Notes under the pieces: model-generated
Told to the model about the DNA's origin: nothing
The model's input: the letters and a program-made list of their open reading frames with translations, nothing else
Databases searched by the model: none
Shown here: positions 2,882-38,342 of the stretch, one piece after another
Layout of the letters: each line of letters begins with the position of its first letter
How positions within the stretch are numbered: position 1 is the first letter of the stretch
Made by a program: the position numbers and the translations under genes
Source: Oscillospiraceae bacterium
Lineage (GTDB): Bacteria > Bacillota > Clostridia > Oscillospirales > CAG-272
Assembly (NCBI GenBank): GCA_015064545.1
Contig: SVSA01000011.1
Coordinates: 1-38,342, forward strand
DNA length: 38,342 nucleotides
Direction of reading: 5' to 3'

Positions 2882-2919
2882 AGAAAACGACAAGTTTCAA
2901 AAGAAACTTGTCGTTTTCT
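2882..2919. terminator. Bidirectional intrinsic terminator between the M3 peptidase gene and tRNA-Lys
   Basis: Perfect 17-bp stem AGAAAACGACAAGTTTC-AAAA-GAAACTTGTCGTTTTCT with T-rich flank in both directions. Confidence 0.8.
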
Positions 2920-2994
2920 GGTGCTCCTGCGGAGACTCGAACTCCGGACACCTTGATTAAAAGTCAAGTGCTCTACCATCTGAGCTACAGGGGC
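2919..2994 (-). tRNA. tRNA-Lys(TTT), CCA encoded
   Basis: Reverse complement GCCCCTGTAGCTCAGATGGTAGAGCACTTGACTTTTAATCAAGGTGTCCGGAGTTCGAGTCTCCGCAGGAGCACCA folds as a cloverleaf with anticodon loop CTTTTAA. Confidence 0.95.
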
Positions 2995-28856: not shown

Positions 28857-31172
28857 TTATGCACGCGGCTCCGTTTCGTTCGGGTGCGGCTCGGTGTGTG
28901 CGGTGTCAGGCGGTATCGTTTTGCGACGCGACGCACGGGCACCAGCGGACGGCAAGCGTCTGCGACGGAAGCGAACGAGCAGAACAAAGACGATCAGAAG
29001 AAAGCCAACGGCCACAGCGATCGTTACCAGCAGCAGGAAGAGCGTAAATAGCGGTGCTATAGTCTTGGTTTTTCCCAGCGTTATCGTTTTGACATCCAAA
29101 TACTGATCCTCCGCCCCCGAGCCGGTGCGCGTCCAAAGACGGAGCTTAGCGGATGATAGTGCCATACTTTCTAACTCATTCAGCGGAAAGGTGATCGTCA
29201 ACCACTCGTTGGTGTCTACCGTTGCTTCGGCATTCCAAACGATTTCGTGTCCGTTTTGATTTCCGATGAAAAGAAGGCGCAGATCGGCGGTTTTGCTTTT
29301 GGAAACAACACGAACCGTCAGTGTCAGCGAATCGGCATGGCCGAGTCGCGTCAGATCCGGGACGGTGGCTCCGATTCCCATGTGCTCAAAGGAGGATACC
29401 CGCAACAGCGCGGCACGCAAGAAGGTGGCATCTTCTTCTTCGCAGAGCTCAAGATACTCGGTATTATCGGTAGGATAGAAGTCATAGAGGCTTTTACTGA
29501 AGTCGTAGAGCACTTCGATGGTTTCTTTGGACGTCAGTATCGTGGGTTTGATGGGAGAGACGGTGATTTCGACACGGTGTGATGCGAAATCCTCGGGACT
29601 GATCGTGTTTTCGGGAAGTAATGACAGGTAAGGAGTGATAAGATCGGTGTTATTCTCACGGTCAACCGCTTTGAACACGGCATGAATGGCCTTCGGTGTT
29701 GAGGGCTCTAACAAAAGATCGGAGGAGGCATAGAGACCGTAATACAGCGAGGATTCCGCGGCGTGATCGACATGACGATGCCAGATCAGTGCCTCAACCG
29801 TGTCATGCTGCAAGGCAATTTTGTAGGCGTAGAGATAGGCCGCGGCTTGAAGCCGTTCATTTGCGGTTCCGCTCTCACCGCTAACGCCGAATTCGCTTAG
29901 CAGAAGCGGACGCACAGTGCCTTGATAGCGGTACGGATCGGCTTGGAGACATTCGATCAGCACCGAAAGATTTTTCATGGTAATATACGAGGCATCGGGC
30001 TTATCCAGGGCGGCAGGATCATTCCAAAAATCGGTTTGGGTAAGGACCGAAGGGTAGGGGTTGACCGCGATGCCGAAGGGAAGATCCGAACAGCGCGTTA
30101 CAACCGCCGTTAAGAAGTCATAGGCGCAGAACAGATACGGCTTTTCATTTTCTTGGGTAATGTGATAGCGGTTTGAGAGTGGGACAAAAACACGGGCATT
30201 GGCATAGGCGCTTCGCACGGCCGTGTCGGCAATGCGCAAAAACGTGGCATAAGCCGCAGCATAATCGTCGAGACGGGGAATACCGGCGCTGTTGCGATCT
30301 CCCTCCTCATTGGCTTCATAACCGAGGATAAAGCTGCCGCAGAAGCCGTTGGCAGACGTGGGATCGGAATAGCGGGAGGCCAAAAAGTGAAGCATGGCCG
30401 CATAGCGAAGTACCCCCTCGCGTGTGGAAACATTGGGGGCAAACAACGTGCCGCTGTTGCCCACCGCCGCATCATAGTATAAATCGGAAGAGGCCGTGGT
30501 ATCAAAGGCTAACAAGCAGTTCAGATAAATGTGAATTCCGGCGTCGGAAAGCGAACGAATACGGTAATCCAATGCCGAAACTGCGGTACTGTTGACATAG
30601 TATTTGTTCCCGCCGTAGAGAAAGGTGATTGCCTTTTCCTCGGAATAGGCGATCAGCTCGTTGAAAAAAACCGTGACAGTTGTATGCTTGACACCGAGTA
30701 GTTGTGCGTCGGTAAGGAGCTGAACTTGCAGACCTTTCTTTGAGGTCATGGCAGGATAAGACTGTGTATGGGGGGCAAAATCCGCGAAATTGGAGAGATA
30801 GACGGCAGGAGAAATGACCTGATATTCGCCGACCTCATCGACTAAAGCCAGCCGATAGCCGTAAAGAGCCAGCGAGGCATCCGAGACATCGTAAGGCAGC
30901 GTAAAGCGAATCGATCGCTTGTCGGCATCGGTAATGGCGATAGGAGTCAGTGTTTCGATCGACTCATTTTCAGGAGAGACACGGAAGAGGTAGACCGCGC
31001 GGTTACCCTCGATAAAGCCGGGTGCCAGGGTGGCCTCGGCAATTAATTCGCTTCCGTCCTCAGACAGATAAACGCGGTTCAGCTCGGTGACATCTCCTTC
31101 GGCGGCAAAAACCACTCCGAACAAAGAGACGGCACATAAGAGCAGTATCGGCAGTAGGATGAGGCGTTTCAT
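28857..31172 (-). CDS. Membrane-anchored glycosidase-like protein, DUF5722-like
   Basis: Signal peptide (MKRLILLPILLLCAVSLFGVVFAAEG), TIM-barrel-like region with ILGYEANEEGD and LLLSEFGVSG, C-terminal TM plus basic tail. Start at ATG 31172 with GGAGGG upstream. Confidence 0.65.
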   Translation of the reverse strand: MKRLILLPILLLCAVSLFGVVFAAEGDVTELNRVYLSEDGSELIAEATLAPGFIEGNRAVYLFRVSPENESIETLTPIAITDADKRSIRFTLPYDVSDASLALYGYRLALVDEVGEYQVISPAVYLSNFADFAPHTQSYPAMTSKKGLQVQLLTDAQLLGVKHTTVTVFFNELIAYSEEKAITFLYGGNKYYVNSTAVSALDYRIRSLSDAGIHIYLNCLLAFDTTASSDLYYDAAVGNSGTLFAPNVSTREGVLRYAAMLHFLASRYSDPTSANGFCGSFILGYEANEEGDRNSAGIPRLDDYAAAYATFLRIADTAVRSAYANARVFVPLSNRYHITQENEKPYLFCAYDFLTAVVTRCSDLPFGIAVNPYPSVLTQTDFWNDPAALDKPDASYITMKNLSVLIECLQADPYRYQGTVRPLLLSEFGVSGESGTANERLQAAAYLYAYKIALQHDTVEALIWHRHVDHAAESSLYYGLYASSDLLLEPSTPKAIHAVFKAVDRENNTDLITPYLSLLPENTISPEDFASHRVEITVSPIKPTILTSKETIEVLYDFSKSLYDFYPTDNTEYLELCEEEDATFLRAALLRVSSFEHMGIGATVPDLTRLGHADSLTLTVRVVSKSKTADLRLLFIGNQNGHEIVWNAEATVDTNEWLTITFPLNELESMALSSAKLRLWTRTGSGAEDQYLDVKTITLGKTKTIAPLFTLFLLLVTIAVAVGFLLIVFVLLVRFRRRRLPSAGARASRRKTIPPDTAHTEPHPNETEPRA

Positions 31173-31189
31173 GCGACCCTCCGAAAAAA

Positions 31190-31233
31190 GAATAGAGAAA
31201 AAGCGGAGCGAAAGGAATGTCCTCGCTCCGCTT
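31190..31233 (-). terminator. Intrinsic terminator downstream of tpiA
   Basis: Perfect 11-bp stem AAGCGGAGCGA/TCGCTCCGCTT followed on the reverse strand by TTTCTCTATTCTTTTTT. Confidence 0.8.
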
Positions 31234-31242
31234 GTCATGTGA

Positions 31243-32010
31243 TTACTGTGCCGCGTCAATGATAGCGGTGAAGTCCGAGGCGACAAGGGAAGCGCCGCCG
31301 ATCAGTCCGCCGTCAACATTGACCTTGGCCAAAAGCTCGGCCGCATTGCTCGGCTTCATCGAGCCGCCGTACTGAATGGTAACGCTCTCGGCAACCTCAG
31401 TACCATACTTTTCGGCCACAACCGAACGAATCACGGCGCAAACCTCCTCGGCCTGCTCTGCGGTGGCGGTTCTGCCGGTGCCGATTGCCCAAACCGGCTC
31501 ATAGGCGATGATGACCTTGCTCATGTCCTCGGCAGAAACATCGAGCAGGGCAATTTTTGTCTGCATCGAAACCACCTCGGTGGTGATGCCGCGATCACGC
31601 TCATCAAGAAGCTCACCTACGCAAAGGATAGGGGTAAGATCAGCGGCAAGTGCAGCCTTGAGGCGGAGATTGACGGTGGCATCGGTTTCGCCGAAGTACT
31701 GTCTTCTTTCGCTGTGGCCGATGACAACGTACTCGGCACCGCATTCCTTCAGCATATCGGCCGAAATTTCACCGGTAAAGGCGCCCTTCTTTTCAAAGTG
31801 GACATTCTGTGCGCCAACCTTGATATTGGTGCCGGCGGTAAGCGTAACGGCGGTCATCAGATCAACAAAGGGGACACAAACCACAATGTCACAGCCGTTC
31901 TTGCCTTTGACCATCGGAATCAGTCCGGAAAGGAGCTTGGCCGTTTCGGAGGGGGTCATATTCATTTTCCAGTTGCCGGCGATGACAGCTTTTCTAACAT
32001 TTTTATTCAT
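31243..32010 (-). CDS. tpiA: Triosephosphate isomerase
   Basis: AGNWKMNMTPSE, VIGHSERRQYFGETD, IAYEPVWAIGTGRTAT, QYGGSMKPSN. Confidence 0.98.
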   Translation of the reverse strand: MNKNVRKAVIAGNWKMNMTPSETAKLLSGLIPMVKGKNGCDIVVCVPFVDLMTAVTLTAGTNIKVGAQNVHFEKKGAFTGEISADMLKECGAEYVVIGHSERRQYFGETDATVNLRLKAALAADLTPILCVGELLDERDRGITTEVVSMQTKIALLDVSAEDMSKVIIAYEPVWAIGTGRTATAEQAEEVCAVIRSVVAEKYGTEVAESVTIQYGGSMKPSNAAELLAKVNVDGGLIGGASLVASDFTAIIDAAQ

Positions 32011-35946: not shown

Positions 35947-35975
35947 TTGACAAAGCGAGGAAAGTGTGATAGGAT
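35947..35975 (+). promoter_or_regulatory. Promoter of the amino-acid ABC transporter operon
   Basis: TTGACA (35947-35952), 17-nt spacer, TAGGAT (35970-35975). Confidence 0.75.
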
Positions 35976-35980
35976 TATCA

Positions 35981-36143
35981 CGATAGAGGCGCGAAACGTA
36001 TGAGTAAGGCAGTCGAGATCCGGCCGATCGATGACGCTGTCAGAAAGGACGCTTCGCCGAAATCCGCATTTGCCGAGACTGCGGGTTGGGCATAGCGATA
36101 AGATCGCTATGACTGTCACATAGGCTTATGTGGAGTGCTGTCG
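35981..36143 (+). promoter_or_regulatory. Lysine riboswitch (L-box) aptamer
   Basis: Conserved blocks GATAGAGGCGCGAA, GAGTA, GAAAGGacGCTTCGCCGAA, GCGGGTTGGGC, GACTGTCA, TGGAGTGCTGTC in canonical order. P1 CGATAG/CTGTCG, P3 AATCCGCA/TGCGGGTT, P4 CATAGCGAT/ATCGCTATG, P5 CACATA/TATGTG. Confidence 0.93.
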
Positions 36144-36168
36144 CTTTTCAATTTATCTTGGAATGTGT

Positions 36169-36203
36169 ACGGCTCCGTCCTCTGTCGGAAGTCGTCATTT
36201 TTA
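36169..36203 (+). terminator. Putative riboswitch expression-platform terminator
   Basis: ACGGCTCCG...CGGAAGTCGT imperfect stem followed by CATTTTTATTT, just before the RBS. Confidence 0.6.
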
Positions 36204-36220
36204 TTTATAAGGAGTTTGTT

Positions 36221-37112: not shown

Positions 37113-37883
37113 ATGAGCTTTTTTGACTGGGTGCTCCGCCTGCTGAAGGAGTATTGGTCTCTGTTTTTGCAGGGCGCGGGCTATACCGTTATTATGGCAA
37201 TCGTCGGAACGGTGGTCGGTTTTATCATCGGTCTTCTGATTGCGATTGTCCGTACGGTTCCGATTCGTTCGGGAGATCATCCTCTCAAGCGAGGATTTCT
37301 TCATACCGTTAACGCGATTCTGACGGCGTATGTGGAGATCATTCGCGGCACGCCGATGCTGGTGCAGGCCTTGATCTTCCATTACAGCTTGTTCTCCAAG
37401 ATCGGTGTTCCGCCGCTTCTCTCGGCCATCATTATCATTTCGGTCAATACCGGTGCCTATATGGCAGAAATCGTGCGCGGCGGCATCATTTCGATTGATA
37501 AAGGGCAGTTTGAAGGGGCCGAGGCCATCGGCATGACGCATTTTCAAACAATGTTTCATGTTGTTCTGCCGCAGGCTGTTCGCAATATTATGCCCTCTAT
37601 CGGTAACGAATTTGTTGTCAATATCAAGGATAGCTCGGTGCTGAGCGTTATTTCGATTACCGAATTGATGTTTATGGCCAAGAGTGCCGGCGGTACATAC
37701 GTTCAGTTTGTGCCGGCCTATGTGATTTGTGCGGTCATTTACTTTATTTTGACCTTTACCGTTACCAGAATTCTTCGCTATGTGGAGAAAAAGATGGACG
37801 GTGACGATTCGTATGTGATCTGCGGCTCGCAGAGCGACTACAAATCGATGATCAAGGTCAAGGGAAAGGAGAAGAACAAATGA
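37113..37883 (+). CDS. Amino-acid ABC transporter permease
   Basis: GAGYTVIMAIVGTVVGFIIGLLIA, YVEIIRGTPMLVQ, EAIGMTHFQTMFHVVLPQAVRNIMPSIGNEF. Confidence 0.95.
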   Translation: MSFFDWVLRLLKEYWSLFLQGAGYTVIMAIVGTVVGFIIGLLIAIVRTVPIRSGDHPLKRGFLHTVNAILTAYVEIIRGTPMLVQALIFHYSLFSKIGVPPLLSAIIIISVNTGAYMAEIVRGGIISIDKGQFEGAEAIGMTHFQTMFHVVLPQAVRNIMPSIGNEFVVNIKDSSVLSVISITELMFMAKSAGGTYVQFVPAYVICAVIYFILTFTVTRILRYVEKKMDGDDSYVICGSQSDYKSMIKVKGKEKNK

Positions 37884-38342
37884 CGGTTCTTGAAGTATCG
37901 CATTTGAAAAAGAACTTCGGACAGAATGAGGTTCTTCACGATATCTCCTTTTCGGTCGAGCAGGGGGATGTGATCAGCGTGATCGGCGCTTCCGGCTCGG
38001 GTAAGAGCACCATGCTTCGGTGCATGAATCTTCTTGAAAAGCCGACGGATGGGCTCATTACCTTCCACGGTAAGAATATTGCTGACGGTTCGCAAAAGCT
38101 GACCGACTATCGTGCTAAGGTTACGATGGTCTTTCAGAGCTTCAACCTGTTTAATAACATGACTGTCCTCGGGAACTGTACGATTGGAACGCGAAAGGTT
38201 CTTGGCCTTTCGAAGCAGGAGTCCGAGGAGCGAGCCATGAAATACTTGGCTAAGGTTGGTATGGATGCCTATATCAATGCCAAGCCCCGTCAGCTTTCGG
38301 GCGGTCAGAAGCAGCGTGTGGCCATTGCCCGCGCACTTTGTA
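37880..38342 (+). CDS. Amino-acid ABC transporter ATP-binding protein, truncated by window edge
   Basis: Not in the ORF track. ATG at 37880 overlaps the permease stop (ATGA). Walker A GASGSGKST and signature LSGGQKQRVAIARAL are visible. Confidence 0.95.
   Translation, partial: MTVLEVSHLKKNFGQNEVLHDISFSVEQGDVISVIGASGSGKSTMLRCMNLLEKPTDGLITFHGKNIADGSQKLTDYRAKVTMVFQSFNLFNNMTVLGNCTIGTRKVLGLSKQESEERAMKYLAKVGMDAYINAKPRQLSGGQKQRVAIARALC

Follow-up and report, generated by a model that had tools for sequence, protein, structure and literature searches.

At the end of the window, by which we mean the whole analysed stretch of 38,342 nucleotides from an Oscillospiraceae bacterium, we found a lysine riboswitch followed by the genes for a substrate-binding lipoprotein, a permease and an ATP-binding subunit (Table 1). 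The ATPase gene is incomplete because the contig ends at 38342; in relatives the same gene order is found with a complete ATPase. The RF00168 match of the leader and the domain matches of the three proteins (PF00497, PF00528/TIGR01726 and PF00005) bear out the original prediction of a riboswitch in front of a three-gene operon for a polar amino-acid ABC transporter. Binding protein and permease are fused in one frame under the lysine riboswitch at two related loci (L082:3992-5527 and L088:3998-5536). Elsewhere in the window, an 809-codon open reading frame on the minus strand (28857-31286) carries DUF5722 (PF18989, E 6e-84) and lies beside tpiA and pgk.

Table 1. Features of the riboswitch-controlled transporter operon, in the order in which they are read.
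Feature	Position	Strand	Basis
Predicted promoter, TTGACA - 17 nt - TAGGAT, extended -10 TG	35947..35975	+	consensus scan, 10/12 matches plus TG
Lysine riboswitch aptamer, RF00168	35976..36148	+	cmscan, full length; P1 = 35981-35986/36138-36143
Predicted antiterminator, GCUGUCGC-U-UUUCAA-loop-UUGGAA-U-GUG-U-ACGGC	36137..36173	+	minimum-energy fold of the post-aptamer leader
Predicted intrinsic terminator	36169..36208	+	stem 36169-36177/36186-36195, one bulge, then CAUUUUUAUUUAU; folding, about -12.8 kcal/mol
Shine-Dalgarno-like AAGGAG	36209..36214	+	sequence; precedes ATG 36221
Substrate-binding lipoprotein, family 3, 284 aa	36221..37075	+	PF00497 E 1.6e-28; AlphaFold pLDDT 94
Permease, polar amino-acid ABC transporter, 256 aa	37113..37883	+	PF00528; TIGR01726 over cutoff
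ATP-binding subunit, partial	37880..38342	+	PF00005 E 1.5e-30

The search of the whole window with cmscan against all of Rfam 15 gave two matches, one tRNA and the Lysine family RF00168. The latter covers model positions 1-182 of 182 and reaches 116.3 bits (E 1.3e-30; gathering cutoff 30 bits), while no other Rfam family was matched at E<=1 between 35700 and 36300. The sole tRNA gene of the window is a tRNA-Lys (anticodon TTT, 2919-2994, minus strand), which is probably a coincidence. The original prediction had placed a lysine riboswitch at 35981-36143 and named Infernal with the Rfam Lysine model as the check; the riboswitch was upheld by this check, and the interval proved to be the exact P1-to-P1 span of the match. 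The L-box block order, which had been read from the letters, was recovered as well: in the model alignment, the conserved core blocks AGAGG.GC, AUGAGUA, GAAAGG, GCCGAA, UGGGC, GACUGUCAC and GUGGAGUGCU are all present in the window aptamer. A kissing loop between the apical loops of P2 and P3 is expected in the lysine riboswitch class, and by eye the P2 loop CGGC (36021-36024) is indeed complementary to the P3 loop GCCG (36072-36075). The highly conserved lysine-riboswitch nucleotides listed in PMC3764141, where the ligand pocket is located around the five-helix junction, fall in the same blocks, all of which are identical in the window aptamer, with the mapping to 3dil made by block and not by residue. 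The full-length match and the conserved blocks together confirm the riboswitch far beyond chance. Judged by its sequence, the leader of the operon holds a genuine lysine-sensing RNA switch, which would bind lysine itself.

Relatives of the binding protein were found at 70 loci in a collection of 84,980 species genomes, and RF00168 stands directly upstream in 48 of them (47 with default filters, plus L080 with laxer filters). On the tree of 79 binding-protein sequences, presence and absence of the riboswitch form strong clusters, with 7 changes versus a shuffled mean of 20; the riboswitch is retained across deep branches and is present in all 12 sequences of the window's clade (support 100). 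We considered that the relatives without an Rfam match might hide divergent riboswitches, which turned out to be true for L080 alone, the others having ordinary leaders by eye. The divergent riboswitch at L080:3777-3942 (61 bits) shows ACU-CC...GAAGAGGCGCU at the P4/P5 junction where ACUGUCAC...GUGGAGUGCU is usual. Here, conserved positions near the ligand pocket are changed, and by sequence the ligand specificity of this riboswitch may be altered. The sister-group loci without riboswitch (L043, L045, L046, L048, L050-L052, L055-L058, L060, L061, L078 and L101) offer a different picture upstream of the binding-protein gene: a TTGTA-n-TACAA palindrome is found at 9 of the 15 sister-group loci versus 0 of 47 riboswitch loci, and many sister-group loci combine the palindrome with an additional TTTGTA box directly 5' of the -35 element. 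This suggests that a DNA-binding regulator may have replaced RNA control in the sister group.

The other lysine riboswitch of the genome (G000:C55:28264-28445, 67 bits) lies directly upstream of dapA-dapB-lysA, and each of these three genes scores over its own NCBIfam equivalog cutoff. With riboswitches on both operons, one signal covers lysine synthesis and, presumably, import, so that a cell with sufficient lysine would lower both. At another locus, the dapA-dapB-lysA operon with its riboswitch (at L003:4265) is directly preceded by a gene resembling phage terminase large subunits (PF03237; L003:2638-3858, minus strand); this gene has two more, unassigned open reading frames next to it and possibly marks a prophage edge beside lysine biosynthesis.

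Within the window's family, 17 of the 98 genomes encode a closely related binding protein, 13 of these 17 with the riboswitch immediately upstream. The 31 riboswitch loci of the family that we read are placed before the ABC operon (12), before an NhaC-type antiporter (12) and before dapA (6), with one locus left unassigned. The antiporter, assigned by PF03553 for one tested protein and by homology to it for the rest, is the lysW of the literature and a predicted lysine transporter. LysW occurs in 0 of the 17 genomes that encode the ABC binding protein versus 39 of the 81 others (hypergeometric 6e-5, a value that ignores shared ancestry and genome incompleteness), and in two genera (g23 and g24) we found one species of each transporter type. 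The window's own genome (G000, 82% complete) likewise gave no match in the search for LysW. Of the sequence-level arguments for lysine as the substrate, the strongest is this replacement of one transporter by the other in a shared regulatory position. The lysine originally predicted as substrate thereby draws support from four sides, namely the RF00168 match, the second riboswitch on dapA-dapB-lysA, the 48 of 70 relatives and the exclusion of LysW.

We next consider what the binding protein itself reveals. No NCBIfam equivalog scored above its cutoff; the best were cystine (91.6 bits), Lys/Arg/Orn (89.2 bits) and glutamine (69.6 bits), all far below. The LAO/ArgT family TIGR01096 has its cutoff at 256.35 versus the 89.2 bits obtained, and the score is far below the NCBIfam ArgT cutoff, too. 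Structure comparison with the AlphaFold model (mean pLDDT 94.3) returned T. maritima ArgBP, pneumococcal AbpA, 4ymx and the ancestral arginine-binding AncQR as the nearest solved folds, with LAO and ArtJ further down. The earlier description of the transporter as a polar amino-acid system stands, while the epithet glutamine-like is only partly apt, the nearest solved structures being arginine and cationic amino-acid binding proteins. In the alignment with LAO (reference sequence identical to PDB 1laf), its residues Asp11, Tyr14, Phe52, Ser72, Arg77 and Asp161 correspond to Glu47, Tyr50, Trp99, Ser119, Arg124 and Glu208. Glu47, Tyr50, Trp99 and Arg124 are identical in 79 of 79 sequences, with the acidic Glu47 matching Asp11 of LAO. 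Residue 11 of LAO-type proteins is the one that we take to contact the cationic end of the ligand side chain. As far as the alignment can tell, the pocket supports a cationic amino acid and does not choose lysine versus arginine or ornithine. As a lysine/arginine discriminator the pocket residues were rejected, because groups with the riboswitch and groups lacking it have the same ones.

These data leave some room for an importer that is broad or takes up mainly arginine or ornithine under a genuine, lysine-sensing riboswitch, with lysine being one of several substrates or the signal alone. We regard this as possible but rather unlikely: the arginine-binding proteins ArgBP, AbpA, 4ymx and AncQR as closest solved structures and the unchanged pocket residues of the 14-sequence sister group, which lacks the riboswitch, are consistent with it, whereas the persistence of the lysine riboswitch across deep branches of the binding-protein tree and the alternation of the operon with LysW at one regulatory slot argue for lysine. 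Tentatively, and somewhat against our own expectation of being right, we further propose that the binding protein represents a distinct lysine-preferring family 3 subfamily in Clostridia (motif M-E-C-[NA]-Y-A-P-[YF]-N-W, Trp99) that is swapped with the NhaC-type LysW behind one and the same riboswitch. One branch of relatives would use a protein operator (TTGTA-n-TACAA) in place of RNA control, so that the regulator and perhaps also the substrate would have changed there.

How the riboswitch controls the operon was read from the folding of the leader. From the predicted promoter, transcription would start near 35982, within the first pairs of helix P1. Behind the aptamer, folding predicts an expression platform that links P1 to gene control in the form of a competing antiterminator and terminator. 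The antiterminator takes up one strand of P1, the 3' one (36138-36143); ACGGC (36169-36173) is common to antiterminator and terminator, and the two helices are mutually exclusive. This predicts an ON-to-OFF transcriptional attenuator, which is the usual arrangement. The computed energies are -58.5 kcal/mol for the aptamer with P1 and terminator versus -54.1 kcal/mol for open P1 with the antiterminator. The ON state comes to -69.4 kcal/mol when the 5' strand of P1 also pairs with CCUCUGUCG (36179-36187), where the P1 3' motif CUGUCG recurs inside the terminator and with which the P1 5' strand plus AGG (35981-35989) can form 9 base pairs. We rejected such a double strand exchange as a built-in part of the switch, since the relatives do not conserve it and shuffles match its length in 7.5%; the additional pairing is possible but unproven.

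At low lysine, P1 would be open and its 3' strand would pair into the antiterminator, which would block the terminator and allow transcription of the operon. At high lysine, the five-helix aptamer would close on its ligand and lock P1, and with the antiterminator strand withheld, the terminator stem (36169-36195) would form and RNA polymerase would stop ahead of the genes. The riboswitch thus most likely halts transcription at plentiful lysine, a direction of control that we infer from the competing helices. Control at the level of translation, in which ligand binding masks the ribosome-binding site, appears quite improbable to us. The terminator is imperfect, with an interrupted U-rich tract CAUUUUUAUUUAU, and a simple terminator scan did not call it, which speaks for this mechanism; but the folded leader has an antiterminator/terminator pair that ends 14 nt 5' of AAGGAG, and its ribosome-binding site lies outside any stable helix. 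Additionally, most of the relatives inspected by folding have a stem-loop with a trailing U run in the interval from the aptamer to the gene. These terminator-like hairpins are strong and occupy the position of the window terminator, which is weaker than most of them.

Taking the aptamer match, the competing helices obtained by folding, the operon order and the conserved association together, we conclude with a probability of about 0.82 that the three-gene ABC importer is under the control of a lysine riboswitch typical of its class, which acts by ON-to-OFF attenuation, and that L-lysine is its main substrate or among the main ones. The operon probably serves lysine uptake; the binding of lysine, the direction of control and the substrate are the deduced parts of this reading. 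Import of a lysine relative such as diaminopimelate or a lysine peptide would also make sense under a riboswitch that reports the end product, yet it is hardly credible given that the family 3 binding protein keeps its alpha-amino-acid pocket (Arg124, Glu208) and that LysW, the predicted lysine transporter, replaces the ABC importer in other genomes. For annotators this means that an ABC transporter of uncultured gut and rumen Clostridia with the unspecific label "polar amino acid" can be named a probable lysine importer; the inference of a substrate from a riboswitch is an established principle. Moreover, the ABC importer and LysW under the same switch provide a clean natural comparison for what such transporters carry.

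Compared to the L-box class (RF00168), the window shares the full-length model match, the core blocks, helices P1-P5 and the antiterminator/terminator platform, and nothing of substance is different apart from a terminator weaker than in relatives and the additional, unconserved pairing open to the P1 5' strand. With LAO (ArgT) of Salmonella the binding protein has the fold and the pattern of ligand residues in common at about 19-20% identity, while the regulation differs. A further parallel is lysX-lysY of Firmicutes: these ABC transporters under lysine riboswitches, some of them annotated as glutamine ABC transporters, were assigned to lysine in PMC5584792 (2017), which extends Rodionov 2003, and genomes with lysX-lysY were reported to be without lysW. 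The original prediction had regarded the substrate assignment as its new part, a claim that fails because such transporters had already been described in 2003 and 2017. As in lysX-lysY, the window has amino-acid ABC genes directly downstream of the lysine riboswitch, a likeness of arrangement, in a genome likewise without a LysW match; its operon consists of three separate genes for binding protein, permease and ATPase. The operon is no new system; it adds one more clean case to a pairing that is already in the literature.
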